Shown one piece after another: positions 234-6,167 of a DNA stretch of 6,167 nt. The position numbers and the translations under genes were made by a program. The notes beneath the pieces are model-generated. The model did not search any database. It had not been told where the DNA came from and worked only from the letters and a program-made list of their open reading frames with translations. This DNA is from Anaerolineae bacterium (lineage in GTDB: Bacteria > Chloroflexota > Anaerolineae > JAFGEY01), in contig JAFGIE010000091.1 in the NCBI GenBank assembly GCA_016929775.1, positions 1-6,167 on the forward strand, given 5' to 3'. How positions within the stretch are numbered: position 1 is the first letter of the stretch; each line of letters opens with the position of its first letter.

Positions 234-1253
234 ATGGCACTGCTCAGGGGAACGCTGCTCAGAGAAGGACGATACGAGATCCTGCGACATCTGGCGCGCG
301 GCGGCTTTGGCTTTATCTATCTCGCACACGACCGGCGCACGGATCGTCGTGTCGTGATCAAGGAACTGCTGCCCGTGCTCGCCGCGGACGAGGAGATACG
401 GCGCCGCTTTGTGCGCGAGTCGCGCGCGATGCAGCGGCTCACCCATCCTCACATCGCCCGCGTCGAGGCTACGTTCCAGGAGCAGGGCACCCACTACATG
501 GTGCTCGAGTACCTGAGCGCCGGCTCGCTCGAGGACGTCATCGAACCGGACCGCACGTTGGGCCTCGCCGAGACCATGCAGGTCGCCATTGCCCTGTGTG
601 GGGCGCTGAGCTACCTGCACGCGCGCGGCATCACCCACTGCGATCTGAACCCCAGCAACGTCCTCTTTGATGCGCAGGGCGTGCCCAAGCTGGTCGATCT
701 GGGCGTCGCGCACATCGCCGACGACTTTGTGCACCGCTCGTGGCGCACGGAGCATGCCTCCTCGTTGGGCACGATCGTCTACATGACCCCAGAGCAGTTG
801 ACCGGGGTCCGCGACGAACCGCGGGTGGACCAGTATGCCCTGGCAGCGATGGTGTACCGCATGCTGTCTGGGCACGACTATCTGCCGTTCGACCGGTCGG
901 GGACCCCGCTGGCTCAGGCAGACAACATCGCCCTGATCCAGCGTGAGACGCCGCGCCCGATCGACGGGATTGGACGCGAGATCAACGAGGTGCTCCTGCG
1001 CGCGCTCGCCAAGGACCCGGCGGCGCGCTATGCGAGCGCCGCGGCGTTCTGCCAGGCCCTGACCCGTGCGGCGATCCCGTACCTGCCCGCTGCGGATGCG
1101 GTTCGGCTGATGGCGCCATCCCGGCTCGCCGTGCGCCCACAGACCAGGATGCAGGGATCCGACGAATGGCCTGCCTGGACGGGGGTCGTGCTCCTGGTAG
1201 CCAACGCAGCGATCATGGCAGTGGTCGCCCTACTGCTCCTGTACGCAGCCTGA
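234..1253 (+). CDS. Membrane-anchored Ser/Thr protein kinase, atypical motifs
   Basis: A 339-residue eukaryote-like (Hanks-type) protein kinase expected to transfer phosphate from ATP to Ser/Thr at the inner face of the membrane. The catalytic domain spans about 14-280: glycine loop LARGGFGFIY (20-29), VVIK lysine K43, helix-C Glu probably E62, catalytic loop HCDLNPSN (135-142), DLG (155-157) in place of DFG, and YMTPEQ (183-188) in place of APE. Oddities: the first loop glycine is Ala21, the HRD arginine is Cys136 (a non-RD kinase), and the usual lysine of DLKPxN is Asn139. The catalytic Asp137 and the Mg-binding Asn142 and Asp155 remain. After a short linker a hydrophobic helix (about 316-337) ends the protein, so it is tail-anchored with no outside sensor domain. 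ATG 234 is the only usable start after the in-frame stop at 189-191; its Shine-Dalgarno is weak. Kinase identity is firm; full activity is uncertain. Confidence 0.93.
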   Translation: MALLRGTLLREGRYEILRHLARGGFGFIYLAHDRRTDRRVVIKELLPVLAADEEIRRRFVRESRAMQRLTHPHIARVEATFQEQGTHYMVLEYLSAGSLEDVIEPDRTLGLAETMQVAIALCGALSYLHARGITHCDLNPSNVLFDAQGVPKLVDLGVAHIADDFVHRSWRTEHASSLGTIVYMTPEQLTGVRDEPRVDQYALAAMVYRMLSGHDYLPFDRSGTPLAQADNIALIQRETPRPIDGIGREINEVLLRALAKDPAARYASAAAFCQALTRAAIPYLPAADAVRLMAPSRLAVRPQTRMQGSDEWPAWTGVVLLVANAAIMAVVALLLLYAA

Positions 1254-1301
1254 GACCACGGTCCTCGGGTAGTCCCCTCAGGCGCTCGGTGGGCCGAGAG
1301 C
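1248..1301 (+). other. Two hairpins after the kinase gene
   Basis: GCCTGAG (1248-1254, including the kinase stop codon) can pair with CTCAGGC (1277-1283), enclosing a small GGG-TAGT-CCC hairpin (1267-1276). It is followed directly by CTCGG-TGGG-CCGAG (1285-1298), extendable to 1282-1301 with one mismatch. The two larger stems share bases 1282-1283, so the second can form fully only in its core. No T-tract follows, so this is not a classical intrinsic terminator. It could stabilise the kinase message or cut downstream expression. The rest of the 125-bp gap shows no clear promoter. Confidence 0.3.
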
Positions 1302-1366
1302 GTGCCCCGGCATCACGCTGTGCGCTGCATGGAGCGATCCGCAGGCGCGTGTTTCGAGAGTGGAAC

Positions 1367-1374
1367 GGAGGAGG
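1367..1374 (+). promoter_or_regulatory. Strong Shine-Dalgarno deciding the GTG start
   Basis: GGAGGAGG at 1367-1374 is a near-ideal ribosome binding site, the best in the window. It lies 4 bases before GTG 1379 and 16 bases before the in-frame ATG 1391. Spacing favours GTG 1379, although 4 bases is slightly short if the whole octamer is used; pairing through the first GGAGG gives 7. It argues against the upstream in-frame ATG at 1166 inside the kinase gene. Confidence 0.7.
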
Positions 1375-1378
1375 TGCT

Positions 1379-2272
1379 GTGCGCGATCATATGCCTTGGT
1401 TGAGGGCGATCGGCGCACTGTGGCTGGGCGTCGGTGCACTAGCCCTCGTATGGGGCGTAGTGGCCCTGCTTTCCGTCTCCTTATCCCGCACGGCACTGCC
1501 CGAGAGCGGGGCGTTCTGGGACCAGTTCCGGGTCTCCCCCTGGGCCGAGGTCGCCGCGCTCGCCTGGGGGGCGTTTGCCCTGATCGCCGGTTGGGGCCTC
1601 ATCCGTCGTCGCAGTTGGGCCCAGACGCTGCTCGTCCCGGCGCATCTGCTCCTCATGCTCTACGCTGTGGTCGGGTGGATCGCGGCCCAAGCCCTGCTCG
1701 CGCGGGGCGCCGCGCCGTACACCGGAGGCGCGGTCCGGTGGGCCGTCCCGATCGTCTTTGGCGCGCTGATCGCGGCAAACGCCGGGCTGCTCACGTTCAT
1801 GCGCAGTGCGGGCACCACCGAGGCGCTCTCGTGGCTGCCCTTGCGCACCATGCCCGCCATTGCCCTTCGCTGCGAGTTTTGCGGCGCGCCGCTCGACCCA
1901 GAGACGCAGCGCTGCCCACAATGTGACGCGATCCCGGCGCCAGTGAGCCATCCCCCCCTCGCCCGGCTGGTCAGTCTGAGCGACCAAGCCACGACCCCGC
2001 TCTCGCCCGACCGGCCCACCCGCATCGGGCGCGGGCGCAGCGAGAACGACCTGAACCTGGGCAATCCGACCGTGTCGCGCCGCCACGCCCAGATCGCGTT
2101 CAGCGGAGGGCAGTACGTGCTGACCGCACTGCAGGACTCGAACGGGACATTCGTCAACGACGCCCTGATCCGCGAACACGCCCTCCAGGACGGCGACGAG
2201 ATACGCTTTGGACGGGTGCGATTCCGTTTCGAGATCGTCCCGATCCAGACATCCGAGGCCCCCCATGCCTGA
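1379..2272 (+). CDS. Membrane protein with zinc ribbon and FHA domain
   Basis: A 297-residue protein that should read phosphothreonine at the membrane. Four hydrophobic segments (about 8-33, 56-75, 81-107, 117-141) form an N-terminal membrane domain. A four-cysteine ribbon follows, CEFC (165-168) and CPQC (179-182), likely binding zinc. The C-terminal FHA domain covers about 196-290 and keeps the phosphopeptide-binding positions: G217-R218, S233-R-R-H236, and N255-G-T with N260. With four membrane segments the ribbon and FHA domain share a side with the N-terminus, presumably cytoplasm. The gene follows the kinase by 125 bp, and its stop lies inside the start of the tubulin-like gene, so the two are probably translationally coupled. 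The natural ligand could be phosphothreonine on the adjacent kinase or the tubulin-like protein; that is inference. The membrane part resembles no family I can name. The FHA call is very firm; the GTG start is well supported. Confidence 0.9.
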   Translation: MRDHMPWLRAIGALWLGVGALALVWGVVALLSVSLSRTALPESGAFWDQFRVSPWAEVAALAWGAFALIAGWGLIRRRSWAQTLLVPAHLLLMLYAVVGWIAAQALLARGAAPYTGGAVRWAVPIVFGALIAANAGLLTFMRSAGTTEALSWLPLRTMPAIALRCEFCGAPLDPETQRCPQCDAIPAPVSHPPLARLVSLSDQATTPLSPDRPTRIGRGRSENDLNLGNPTVSRRHAQIAFSGGQYVLTALQDSNGTFVNDALIREHALQDGDEIRFGRVRFRFEIVPIQTSEAPHA

Positions 2273-5066
2273 CCTACATCCCGCCTTGATCATCGGCATT
2301 GGGCCGCAAGCCGGGCAGATCGTCGCGCACTACGCGCACATCCTAGGCGCGCGTAAGGGCCCGGTCCCCGCCGTGCTCGCGGCGACGGTCGAGCTGGGCA
2401 GGCCCACGCCCGGACGAGATGCCGCGGGCATACAGGTCCTCTCGGTGCCGGCGCCGGCGTTCGGCCCCGCCGAGGCTTGGCCCACTTGGCTGCCCACCGA
2501 ACTGGCGCGCATGCCGGTTGCGGAACGGATGCAGACCCGCGCCTGGATGCGCGCCGCCCTGGTCCAGGCTGCGGACGAGATCGAGGAATTCCTGCTGGAG
2601 CGCATCCCTCACCTGACCTCCTTTGCCGCGATCGAGGAGATGCGTGCGGCGGGCATGGCGCTGGCTGGCGACAGCGAGATCCGGGTCTACGTGATCGCCG
2701 ATCTCGGCGACCCCCTCGGCAGCAGCGCGTTCATCGACGTCGCCTACCTCGCGCACCACGTCTGCCGGCAACTGGGCCTCCAGCCCGCGGTCAGCGGCGT
2801 CCTCTCCCTGCCGCCCGCGACCTCCCCGGCGCCTGCCGAGGAGGCGATCGCCTATGCCGCGCTCAAAGAGCTGGACCACTATGTCGAGCGCCGGGCCTAC
2901 GACCGGGAATGGGTCCCTGATTGGGCGCCGGACGAGGAGCTGGGCCCCTTTGAGGACGGCTGCTACCTCTTTGACGCCGTGAACGAGCTCGGGTACACGC
3001 TCGAGGACCCGGCCCAACAGGTGATCCTGATCGCCGAGTGGCTGTACGCGATGACGATCCTCGGCATACACGAAGCGGTCCGCGCGCGGCGGCGGCGACG
3101 GTACGCTACCAGCACCCTGCGCAGGCGCGTTCGCCCCTACGAGGGGACCGGCATCGCCGTCCGCTACGTGCCTCGCACAGCCCTGCTCGATTGGCTGACG
3201 GCAAGGTGGGGCGGCGCCGTAGCCCAGCGGATGCTCGGCGAGCGGAGCGCGCGAGACGGCGCCGCACGCGCTGCTGCGTTCGCGGCGCGCGTGGGACTCG
3301 GTCTGGACGATCTGCGCGCGACACTGCGCCAGCGCGCCGGCGAGGGACAGGTCGAGGGCGAGTTGGAGGACCTACAGCGAGCGCCCCTTCACCAGATCGA
3401 GCTGCGCGCGCGCGAGGCCCTGCAGCACATCCGCGCGCGCCACCTGCCCGCACTGGACGCGCGCCTGGCGCAGGCTAGCCAAGCGCTCGGCGGAGAGCTG
3501 CAGCACGCCATAGAGGGCGAGATCGCTGCGACGGAGGAGGGCGGACTGGACGGGATCGTCCAGGAGAGGGAGCAATTCCTGGATGGCGTTGCCCACCGCC
3601 TCGCCAACGTGCAGCGCGAGGTCGAGGCGTTGAGCAGGCGGCACGGGCAAGCGCTCCGCGCGGCGCTGTCGACGGTCGGCGAGGCGCACTATGCGCTGCG
3701 CGCCGTGCTGATGAGCGTTCCCCCTTGGCCGATCTCGGTCGTGAGCGCCATCGGCTTGCTGCTCTTGCCCCTCGTGTACGTCGCACGCCTGGTCGACGTC
3801 GTGCTGCAGCCGATCGGGCATGGGTGGAGCACCGCCGTGCAAGTGGTCCTCATCCTGGGCGTACTCGGGATCGTGGCCTACCTGGGTTATCAACTGTGGC
3901 GCAGGCAGAGAGGTGTCTGCGCACAGTACCGGGAGATGGTCCAACAGCGATACGAGTTGGAGGGCAACCCGCTCTACTATGCCGCGATCGGCGCCGCCTG
4001 CGCCTCCGCGCAAGAGTACGTCGACCGGACACGGCAAGAGCTATCTGCGCTGGCATCTGCCCTGCGCACCGTCACCGCGCAGATGGATCGGCAGGCGGCA
4101 GATGCGGCTGAGCGCCTGGAGGCGTTGGCGGCGCCCGGGCCATTCAGCTCTGCTGTCGGGCGCCCAGAGGCAGTGGTGGTCTGGAGCCGCGTGGAGGGCG
4201 ACCTCGAGCGATCGCTGCAGGCCCTGCATGCCGAAACGGGATCGCTGGACACTTGGCAGGAGCGCGCCGACGACGCCGTGCAGCCGTTGTCGTCGTGGTT
4301 GTGCGAGCACCTAGCACGCCGCGGACCGGCGCATCTCGCGCCCTATGCCGCCCAGTTTGGCGTGCTGGACTTGATGGCTGTCCGCGCGGGCGATGCACAA
4401 GACGACGCCTTCCAGCGCCTGATCGAGAGCGCGCAGCCGCTGTGGAACATCGATCCACGCACGCTGCGGCGCGGCAAGACGGAGCGGATCGTGGTCGTCG
4501 GCGCCGCGCCGGGTACGGCGCGCGAGGAACTCTCGCGCAGGTTGGGGCGGGACGCGCGGGGACGAGCGTGGGTCGATACCCGGGATCCCAACAGCGTGGT
4601 CGTGGTCCGCGTGCACCGCGGGCTGCCGCTCTTTGCGCTGCGCCGCATCGCCGAGTACCGTGCCCACTATGCCGAGATGCTGTGGCAGGGCAAGCGTCCC
4701 TTGCACTCGACCTGCGCCATGCGTCTACAGGAGGACCTGTTCCCGGCGTACCGCGGGGTCCGATACCCGGCGGCGATCCTGTTTGCCACCGGACTGGCGC
4801 TGGGCCACATCCGTCGCGATCCCAGCGGGCGCTACCTCGCCCCGCGCCCACAGGGCGGCACGATCGCCCTGAGCCGGCAGAAGGACCGTTCGGTTGCCTT
4901 GATGAGCATGGACGGCGCCACCTGCGGCGAGGTCCAGCGGCAGCTCGACGCCGTACTCGCCACCAAGGGCGCCAGCGCCGTACGCACGATCCTCGACGAG
5001 TACGTGACCGTGATGCCCGACCTGAAGGATTGGGAGGTGAGGGCGATCCTCGCTTTCCAGCGCTAG
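2265..5066 (+). CDS. Large tubulin-like protein with membrane hairpin (Tubulin_2-like)
   Basis: A 933-residue protein I assign to the bacterial tubulin-like family (Pfam Tubulin_2, recognised from memory of family motifs). Supporting features: N-terminal beta strand and glycine turn LIIGIGPQAGQ (8-18); VYVIADLGDPLGSS followed by AFIDVAYL (141-162), where the family has a GGTGSG-type loop before a LDLAYL helix; YAALKELDHY (197-206); and CYLFDAVNE (233-241). An arginine cluster lies at 273-290. Then come a helical, probably coiled-coil part (about 340-480), two membrane helices (about 489-508 and 522-545) with a short loop, a second helical part (546-690), and a C-terminal domain with IVVVGAAPG (742-750), HRGLPLF (784-790) and PLH (812-814). 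Both large parts would be cytoplasmic. The nucleotide loop is degenerate, so GTPase activity and polymerisation are doubtful. ATG 2265 has GAGG 6 bases upstream and overlaps the FHA gene by 8 bp; the ATG at 2208 lies deep in that gene. The role is probably membrane-linked and structural (inference). Confidence 0.75.
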   Translation: MPDLHPALIIGIGPQAGQIVAHYAHILGARKGPVPAVLAATVELGRPTPGRDAAGIQVLSVPAPAFGPAEAWPTWLPTELARMPVAERMQTRAWMRAALVQAADEIEEFLLERIPHLTSFAAIEEMRAAGMALAGDSEIRVYVIADLGDPLGSSAFIDVAYLAHHVCRQLGLQPAVSGVLSLPPATSPAPAEEAIAYAALKELDHYVERRAYDREWVPDWAPDEELGPFEDGCYLFDAVNELGYTLEDPAQQVILIAEWLYAMTILGIHEAVRARRRRRYATSTLRRRVRPYEGTGIAVRYVPRTALLDWLTARWGGAVAQRMLGERSARDGAARAAAFAARVGLGLDDLRATLRQRAGEGQVEGELEDLQRAPLHQIELRAREALQHIRARHLPALDARLAQASQALGGELQHAIEGEIAATEEGGLDGIVQEREQFLDGVAHRLANVQREVEALSRRHGQALRAALSTVGEAHYALRAVLMSVPPWPISVVSAIGLLLLPLVYVARLVDVVLQPIGHGWSTAVQVVLILGVLGIVAYLGYQLWRRQRGVCAQYREMVQQRYELEGNPLYYAAIGAACASAQEYVDRTRQELSALASALRTVTAQMDRQAADAAERLEALAAPGPFSSAVGRPEAVVVWSRVEGDLERSLQALHAETGSLDTWQERADDAVQPLSSWLCEHLARRGPAHLAPYAAQFGVLDLMAVRAGDAQDDAFQRLIESAQPLWNIDPRTLRRGKTERIVVVGAAPGTAREELSRRLGRDARGRAWVDTRDPNSVVVVRVHRGLPLFALRRIAEYRAHYAEMLWQGKRPLHSTCAMRLQEDLFPAYRGVRYPAAILFATGLALGHIRRDPSGRYLAPRPQGGTIALSRQKDRSVALMSMDGATCGEVQRQLDAVLATKGASAVRTILDEYVTVMPDLKDWEVRAILAFQR

Positions 5067-5097: not shown

Positions 5098-6167
5098 CTA
5101 TCCCAGCAGGATCTTGCGCAGCTCGGTGTGCGCTTGGTCTGCCCCCAACGCCATCTCGATCGCGGTGTCGATATAGTGCGACTTGCCGGCGATATAACCA
5201 GCAGGTCGTCCATCGGCCTCGCGGCGAGCGAGGAGCACCTGCCGCCCCACCGTGTCGTGCGCCACCGGGTCAAAGCTCATCGCGATCTTGGACTCGCGCG
5301 TCATCTGGTTCCAGTCATAGGGACAAGTACGGATCCAGTCGCCGACGATCAGGCGCGTTTTGGCGCGGATCTCGGGCAGCGCGTTGAGCGTGGCGATGTA
5401 GGGATCGCACGCATTCCCGTGCAGCGCACCGGGACGGTCGACCGTCCCATAGTGGTTCTTCATCGCAGAAGTAAACCCGGAGGTACCGTGCTCCTTGAGC
5501 GCCGGGATGTTGATCAGGGCGTGGCACGACAAGAGCACGTCGTGCAGGCGCTGCGTCTGCCCCGCGATGTCGGTCGGCGCCTCCCACCCCTTCGCGCCCC
5601 TGCAGCGCACCCCCGCCCCGTCGGCGTTGATCGTGAACCCCTGCGCCTGCAGCTCCCAGTCCGTGCGGTCAAAGATGACGATCTGCTCGGCGCTCAACCC
5701 GGCATCCTGCAGGCGCTGCGCCACGGCGTACGCGATTTGCGGCGTGGTCGTGTAGCGGCTGATCGTGTTGACCTTGATCCCGACCCGCTCCCCCGCATCG
5801 AACAGCACGCGCCAGGCGAGCGCGGCGTCCTCGATCCCGGTCAGCTGTACCAACGCGGCGTCGAGCATCTGCAGCACGACCTGATCCTGAATCTGATCCG
5901 CATCCCACACACCCGGGTGCTCGACCAGGGACACGACGCTCTGCGCCACCTGTGGATAGTGCGCCACCAGCGCATCGCGCGACGGCACGACCAGTGTGGC
6001 GGTCGGGCGCGGCGCGGTTGCCGTGGGTAGAGGCGTCGGCGACGGCGCCGCCATCGTCGGAGTCCCTTGCGCAGGGACCGCCTGGGTCGCCGGCGCTGTC
6101 GCGGTCGGGTCCTGCGCCGCAGGGACCGCCTGGGTCGCCGGCGCTGTCGCGGTCGGGTCCTGCGCCG
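5098..6167 (-). CDS. DUF362 domain protein with Pro/Thr/Ala linker, 5' end outside window
   Basis: The reading frame runs from the stop at 5098-5100 to the window edge without interruption: 355 residues visible and no certain start. Numbering from the in-frame Met at 6054, about 38 visible residues precede it, and the stretch to about 25 is Pro/Thr/Ala-rich linker. The DUF362 domain follows: GIKVN (92-96), INIPALKEHG (181-190) and the SAMKN (196-200) typical of the family, and DPVAHDTVG (262-270). DUF362 function is poorly defined; some members carry ferredoxin-like Cys clusters or Tat signals. Here only scattered cysteines are seen (151, 177, 216, 244) and no 4Fe-4S motif. The low-complexity linker suggests an exported or lipid-anchored protein whose signal lies off the window; that is inference. 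The Met at 6054 sits inside the linker and is unlikely to be the true start. It converges on the tubulin-like gene and is probably a separate unit. Confidence 0.85.
   Translation of the reverse strand, partial: AQDPTATAPATQAVPAAQDPTATAPATQAVPAQGTPTMAAPSPTPLPTATAPRPTATLVVPSRDALVAHYPQVAQSVVSLVEHPGVWDADQIQDQVVLQMLDAALVQLTGIEDAALAWRVLFDAGERVGIKVNTISRYTTTPQIAYAVAQRLQDAGLSAEQIVIFDRTDWELQAQGFTINADGAGVRCRGAKGWEAPTDIAGQTQRLHDVLLSCHALINIPALKEHGTSGFTSAMKNHYGTVDRPGALHGNACDPYIATLNALPEIRAKTRLIVGDWIRTCPYDWNQMTRESKIAMSFDPVAHDTVGRQVLLARREADGRPAGYIAGKSHYIDTAIEMALGADQAHTELRKILLG
6070..6167. repeat. 48-bp perfect tandem repeat, two copies, in-frame
   Basis: Bases 6070-6119 are repeated exactly at 6118-6167, a period of 48 bp with just over two copies before the window ends. 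Forty-eight is 16 codons, and on the minus strand in the DUF362 frame each unit encodes AQDPTATAPATQAVPA. Identity at every base, including synonymous positions, indicates recent duplication by slippage or unequal recombination, or an array kept uniform. More copies may lie beyond the edge. The product is a flexible extracytoplasmic-style linker whose length can change in 16-residue steps without breaking the frame. Confidence 0.9.

Follow-up and report, generated by a model that had tools for sequence, protein, structure and literature searches.

Positions 234-5066 of the 6,167-nucleotide stretch of Anaerolineae DNA analysed here (contig JAFGIE010000091.1, hereafter the window) hold three plus-strand genes in a row, for a Ser/Thr protein kinase, a four-helix membrane protein with an FHA domain and a 933-residue protein of the Pfam family Tubulin_2 (FtsZl1). 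This trio is apparently a reduced version of the bacterial vWA/FtsZl1/kinase system, in which the 933-residue protein is the TubB half of a pair of adjacent Tubulin_2 genes, named TubA and TubB in their order. The anatomy of the trio (domains, order, membrane segments, binding face of the FHA domain, degenerate T4 loop and, by model, the fold) is well supported, and from it we infer a phosphorylation circuit. A preliminary description of the same DNA had already proposed three consecutive same-strand genes with these domains, together with a tail anchor in the kinase, four helices in the FHA protein and a hairpin in the tubulin-like protein. These points were borne out, as the Pfam matches to Pkinase, FHA and Tubulin_2 all exceed their cut-offs and hydropathy gives one, four and two membrane segments, respectively. 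Chance is ruled out as the source of the trio because the tubulin-like and FHA proteins have homologues and the same trio is present in a second locus, L001.

The tubulin-like protein matches PF13809 with an E-value of 6.3e-15 and 55.7 bits for a curated cut-off of 27. A protein search returned 36 entries including the window's own, three of them named Anaerolineae. Beyond that own entry and one remote match, 34 relatives were found at 37-50% identity, and 33 rows were aligned as profile A1. The signature GTP loop GGGTG(S/T)G is not in the window protein, which reads GDPLGSS there, a point missed in the preliminary description. In the same way, GGTGSG is not found in 34 of the 35 listed relatives, the exception being the remote match, which covers 14% of the query. 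In view of this missing loop, the protein is assigned to a divergent TubB branch of Tubulin_2 and not to the canonical FtsZl1 GTPases. The T4 replacement is itself conserved, with Leu147, Asp149, Leu151 and Ser153 in 90% or more of the 33 rows, which argues for a changed role and not for decay. Between H7 and S7, TubB proteins carry Arg278 (27 of 33 rows), Arg279 (30) and Tyr280 (33), and the TubA counterpart reads Asp304 (54 of 57) and Asn305 (55 of 57). The acidic T7 motif was not found in the window TubB, in a loop whose assignment is tentative and leans partly on a weak match of TubA in HHalign. Judged by its sequence, the window protein is of TubB type and better named a pseudotubulin. 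The cytoskeleton-like effector proposed earlier is thereby weakened: a tubulin fold is predicted by the model, but the GTP loop, the acidic T7 motif, TubA and the cluster vWA gene are all lacking.

The pairing of the two subunits emerges from a survey in which 31 of 396 genomes of the class matched A1 (E of 1e-3 or below); the strong matches were identical when 367 genomes of this class were sampled anew. Leaving aside G001, which contains L001, neighbourhoods were taken from the remaining 30 matched genomes; three were extended, several stretches are short contigs, and genes were labelled by profiles built from Pfam-annotated members. Two adjacent same-strand Tubulin_2 genes occur in 27 of these 30 loci and a vWA gene in 25. 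All 25 testable pairs have the GTP-loop motif (accepted as GGTGSG, GGTGSS, GGTNSG or GGTGAG) in the first gene, TubA, and none has it in the second, TubB. In the two further pairs (L039, L058) one gene is cut by the contig end. Two loci (L060, L062) contain TubA only, and L061 is probably a chance match of the survey because it holds only a 224-amino-acid frame with weak similarity to A1. The pairing is not merely a product of the query, since 14 of the 25 TubB genes are themselves absent from the A1 matches, though A1 is a TubB alignment. By a fixed hydropathy rule, a mid-protein hairpin is found in 16 of the 25 TubB proteins and in none of the 25 TubA proteins.

In a quick tree of 74 proteins, unrooted and with long branches, the A and B labels require 2 changes compared with about 25 in shuffles, and the window protein falls with the TubB proteins. 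One of the two changes is the A/B boundary itself; the other is the first gene of L039, which has lost its N-terminus and is labelled B among the TubA proteins. Across 23 pairs, TubA and TubB distances correlate with r 0.94 (0 of 2000 permutations as high), a correlation that shared genome descent alone would produce, and TubA is more conserved than TubB in 252 of 253 comparisons. A search with a TubA protein gave 119 matches, 93 of which have the loop within their first 450 residues under a strict motif test. Among the 26 that fail, 14 exceed 1000 amino acids and 13 of these are annotated with a kinase domain; in these long proteins the loop may lie further in. Separately, the second-gene frame of L059 (8067-13406, 1779 amino acids) combines a vWA match with a TubB-like part and is apparently a fusion of two parts of the system.

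The window protein was modelled with AlphaFold (predicted local distance difference test 84.3, predicted template modelling score 0.69). According to the models, TubA and TubB each have the greater part of the FtsZ/tubulin fold, into which about 350-410 mostly helical residues are inserted between H9 and S8. Structural matches to the window model start at residues 2-5 and end at 827-830 in most of the 50 listed, and the protein has the long helical middle and the separate C-terminal domain of the family, the latter being placed by the model within a tubulin fold. Foldseek by itself gives a marginal result with the window model (best E 1.1e-3) and a stronger one with TubA (4.4e-5). Against solved structures, phmmer with the window protein found no tubulin and nothing at E up to 10; the profiles of TubA (A2) and TubB (A1) likewise gave no tubulin at E up to 10 and mostly coiled-coil or helical matches, besides RecA for A2 and the end of an intracellular-survival protein for A1. 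HHalign of TubA with six FtsZ proteins is weak (probability 10-14%, E 0.002-0.003) and extends from T4 to about S7-H9 at most, without reaching the C-terminal domain even when the insertion columns are removed, and TubB gave no useful match to FtsZ. Because sequence-only comparison found no tubulin, the split fold is drawn from the AlphaFold models and from alignment of structures. In TubA, the region that comes immediately after the C-terminal tubulin elements (A2 797-866) matches the C-terminal part of RecA (3hr8_A 268-335, E 9.5e-4), a marginal resemblance that possibly reflects a shared small domain.

Makarova and Koonin (2010, PMC2875224) described FtsZl1 with vWA, kinase, GTPase and OmpA neighbours, so that the association of kinase, tubulin-like and vWA genes, mentioned in the preliminary description, has been in print since then. 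In the portions of that paper drawn on here, T6-H7 of FtsZl1 was not confidently identified, no similarity of its C-terminal domain to that of known family members was detected, and the presence of the filament-forming T6-H7 and C-terminal elements was left open with three possibilities named. In parallel, a 2023 survey, as far as it was available (PMC9871819), separates the family partly for having no FtsZ_C or Tubulin_C domain. The two AlphaFold models favour the first of the three possibilities, namely that these elements are present, the C-terminal ones being placed hundreds of residues downstream behind the insertion.

The window protein shares with the FtsZl1/vWA-kinase operons, as presented in those portions of PMC2875224, the Pfam family, the N-terminal FtsZ-like domain, the helical middle, the C-terminal domain, kinase genes nearby and membrane-associated partners. 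It differs in lacking the GTP loop and TubA and in having a membrane hairpin and an FHA/zinc-ribbon membrane partner; the associated Ser/Thr kinase of such systems is present in the window and the adjacent vWA gene is absent. The same portions contain no mention of FHA partners, of an intact/degenerate pair or of a split tubulin fold. Kaur et al. (2020, PMC7159879), in the sections used here, report two tubulin-coiled-coil genes per neighbourhood in Firmicutes, with vWA genes and GTPase systems. These Tubulin/vWA/GAP1-N2 GTPase systems also combine two tubulin genes with vWA but are defined by GAP1 GTPases, and those sections hold nothing on one tubulin without GTP loop or on a split fold. Among the open-access PMC titles and abstract openings listed, no description of an intact/degenerate pair or of a split fold was found. 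BtubA/BtubB and alpha/beta-tubulin have two subunits where the window lineage has one, as far as seen; these subunits are not known to have a long stalk or membrane hairpin, and both bind GTP. CetZ and FtsZ are not known to have an H9-S8 insertion and keep the GTP loop intact.

The second trio belongs to an Anaerolineae metagenome-assembled genome (MAG; JADHXD010000096.1) and has the same gene order. In the window no vWA gene adjoins the trio, and L001 has a single vWA gene, of VIT-vWA type, which lies 2.1 kb upstream of the kinase on the opposite strand. G001, whose order holds a single genome, was searched with PF13809 and the TubA profile, and no second Tubulin_2 gene was found. The window lineage thus appears, as far as seen, to have one Tubulin_2 subunit, TubA and the cluster vWA gene being absent from the window and from L001/G001.

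The larger clusters of the closest paired loci show what the trio lacks. With PK for the kinase and FHA4TM for the four-helix FHA protein, the order in G099 and G238 is FHA - PP2C - PK - FHA4TM - FHA - vWA/FHA - TubA - TubB. The stretch fetched for G275 opens with PK - FHA4TM - FHA - vWA/FHA - TubA - TubB. G091 has PP2C - FHA4TM - FHA - vWA/FHA - TubA - TubB, with a kinase about 11 kb off, and G284 has PP2C - PP2C - DUF3352 - FHA4TM - FHA/PK - vWA/FHA - TubA - TubB. The window and L001, with PK - FHA4TM - TubB, keep this order minus FHA, vWA/FHA and TubA. FHA4TM adjoins a kinase gene in six of the seven closest loci, G091 having PP2C there, and lies directly beside TubB in the window and L001 only. 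As side observations, the DUF3352 gene of the G284 cluster (L037 14722-16449, minus strand, 2.9e-63) lies between the PP2C genes and FHA4TM, and in the G099 cluster an FHA protein with a DnaJ-like start (L068 9216-10265; 24.3 bits, cut-off 27.8) comes before PP2C.

An indirect comparison of contig sizes, which covers only the longest contig per 90% cluster and, for the FHA protein, 84 of 286 matches (E<1e-50; 120 listed), gave nine exact sizes in common between TubB and FHA proteins, one of them the window, versus 0-1 in each of 20 shifted controls. TubB and TubA lists have one size in common (5853), no more than their shifted controls; it is taken as coincidence because proteins of 956 and 1195 amino acids cannot both fit and the controls give 0-1. 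A viral origin was also considered, and no relative was found in viral contigs at the sensitivity of that scan.

The FHA protein has 83 close relatives with E below 1e-50, the window's own entry excluded, and its four-helix counterparts in the five closest paired loci have the same layout. Zinc-ribbon Pfam matches are present under their cut-offs. In the FHA domain, Gly217, Arg218, Ser233, Arg234, His236, Asn255, Gly256 and Asn260 are kept in 84 of 84 rows, residues whose roles we take to lie in phosphothreonine binding. With this conserved Arg, Ser and Asn on its binding face, the protein is, by sequence, a predicted phosphothreonine reader. Two relatives (P0183, P0186) carry a precomputed PF14325 annotation besides FHA, which may provide a name for the four-helix part. 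The kinase is of Hanks type, its Pkinase match spanning residues 14-271 and the catalytic residues K43, D137, N142 and D155 being present in a motif scan, with E62 read by eye.

From these elements a mechanism can be proposed. By sequence and predicted model, TubB has a tubulin-fold head with a degenerate nucleotide loop on a long helical stalk, which enters the membrane as a hairpin. The kinase, through its tail, and the FHA protein are predicted to sit in the same membrane. The kinase may autophosphorylate or phosphorylate TubB or the FHA protein. Whichever partner is phosphorylated would then be bound by the FHA domain, and this binding would gather the heads of TubB into a scaffold at the membrane that needs no GTP hydrolysis. 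Where the system is complete, TubB would instead hold or nucleate the GTP-loop subunit TubA at the membrane beside the vWA protein. We consider that this whole explanation, a phosphorylation-controlled and GTP-independent tubulin-fold membrane scaffold, has an even chance of being correct. The broader proposal, on which we are more hesitant and which we put forward tentatively, is that Tubulin_2/FtsZl1 is a two-subunit membrane-tethered bacterial tubulin, made of a soluble intact-loop TubA and an anchoring pseudotubulin TubB, both split at H9/S8 by a helical insertion, and that in the window lineage TubB outlived TubA to become a GTP-free scaffold run by phosphorylation. The split fold and the TubA-TubB pairing would make the vague idea of membrane remodelling specific, with TubA polymerising, TubB tethering and, here, TubB alone under the kinase. 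If a tubulin-fold protein does work without a GTP loop, it would offer a natural experiment of a rare kind.

Several points weigh against the scaffold explanation. Whole trios were seen in two loci only, and the absence of TubA from G001 is weak evidence because this MAG is of undisclosed completeness. The hairpin rule fails in 9 of the 25 TubB proteins; two others, cut by contig ends (L043, L052), have two segments each beyond the limits of the rule. Some nucleotide binding by TubB may remain, as Asn240 of the S6-H7 region is conserved in 32 of 33 rows. The kinase reads HCDLNPSN at residues 135-142 (window 636-659) instead of the usual HRDxKPxN, and the same is found in L001 (residues 135-142); with the HRD Arg replaced by Cys and the catalytic-loop Lys by Asn139, where most kinases carry Lys, its activity is not certain. 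Cluster kinases of related loci have HRD and Lys in all six in which the motif was found, the motif not being found in two more kinase matches. Finally, the single gene module of the preliminary description held among close relatives, where the four-helix FHA protein shares a cluster with TubB in seven of seven loci (window, L001, G091, G099, G238, G275, G284), and failed in the wider family: FHA or kinase genes occur in just one (L038) of the other 25 fetched loci, within the stretch fetched. The neighbourhood survey suggested at that time thus finds the partners kept in one branch and not in Tubulin_2 genes at large.

This last result, with most of the distant Tubulin_2 loci fetched lacking kinase and FHA neighbours, would fit neighbouring genes that are co-transcribed but have no circuit in common, with another kinase being read by the FHA protein. 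In the closest paired loci, moreover, the kinases are larger than that of the trio and differ from it in their catalytic-loop motif. Yet these loci share their gene order with the window and L001, additional contigs suggest a linkage of FHA and TubB, and the two genes overlap in the window, which makes independent neighbours an unlikely account.

TubB might instead be a membrane adaptor for ordinary FtsZ, whose head, after the loss of TubA, joins or caps FtsZ filaments under kinase/FHA control. The tubulin fold retained in the model and the single PF00091 (FtsZ-type) match of G001, with no second Tubulin_2 gene found, agree with this. However, PF00091 matches also accompany TubA (one each in G099, G238, G275 and G284, two in G091), so that the presence of FtsZ does not set the trio apart; a scan of six L001 neighbours also revealed no division gene, and we regard an adaptor role as improbable.

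That the trio is a conflict or defence system, with the tubulin-like protein as an assembling effector released by kinase signalling, is hardly to be expected: the sections of PMC7159879 used here place tubulin-coiled-coil and vWA genes in predicted GTPase-centred conflict systems and the kinase matches PADLOC models including PD-T4-6 (best 2.3e-67, 225.7 bits, no cut-off given), but its matches span 35 families, as any such kinase would give, neither TubB nor the FHA protein matched a PADLOC model at E up to 1, and a Pfam scan of a few neighbours revealed neither a nuclease nor any other toxic effector gene. The scaffold proposed for TubB under kinase and FHA control is retained as the preferred reading, and the features on which it is built are located below.

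Table 1. Location of the trio, its parts and neighbouring features; positions are those of the window unless L001 is named.
Feature	Extent	Positions	Strand	Basis
Ser/Thr protein kinase gene	339 amino acids	234..1253	+	Pfam Pkinase 4.9e-42
Kinase C-terminal membrane helix	residues 318-336	1185..1241	+	hydropathy 2.93; same position in L001
Ribosome-binding-site-like GGAGGAGGT ahead of FHA gene		1367..1375	+	read from sequence
Gene of four-helix membrane protein with zinc ribbon and FHA domain	297 amino acids	1379..2272	+	Pfam FHA 1.9e-18
Four membrane helices	residues 13-141	1415..1801	+	hydropathy
Zinc ribbon CxxC-x10-CxxC	Cys165, 168, 179, 182	1871..1924	+	all four Cys in 84/84 family rows
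FHA domain	residues 214-278	2018..2212	+	Pfam, above cut-off
Overlap of FHA gene stop with TubB gene start	8 bases	2265..2272	+	sequence
TubB-type Tubulin_2 (FtsZl1) gene, ATG start	933 amino acids	2265..5066	+	PF13809 match, tree grouping
N-terminal tubulin domain through S7 and H9	residues 1-324	2265..3236	+	model; element names inferred
Degenerate T4 loop GDPLGSS where GGTGSG is expected	residues 148-154	2706..2726	+	sequence comparison
Long, mostly helical insertion between H9 and S8	residues 325-735	3237..4469	+	model; placement inferred from model and structural matches
Membrane hairpin inside the insertion	residues 492-541 (helices 492-510, 523-541)	3738..3887	+	hydropathy
C-terminal tubulin elements S8-H10-S9-S10-H11	residues 740-830	4482..4754	+	model strands and helices
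Convergent DUF362 gene, neighbour outside the unit	open at window edge	5098..6165	-	DUF362 4.4e-17
L001 kinase	339 amino acids	L001 5962-6981
L001 FHA protein	284 amino acids	L001 7042-7896
L001 tubulin-like gene		L001 7913 to 10930

The kinase and FHA genes of the window are separated by 125 bases, and the latter starts with GTG. A crude pattern scan of the window gave neither promoter-like nor terminator-like sites, where 0.4 and 1.4, respectively, were expected by chance, and no RNA family reached its gathering score there. Among the open reading frames of the fetched loci, a DUF362 homologue was found by phmmer (E up to 0.01) in L001 only, at the same place (10944-12284, minus strand; 1.9e-150; Pfam agrees). 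In the window, the DUF362 protein begins (6059-6166) in an Ala-, Pro- and Thr-rich tandem repeat that extends past the window edge.

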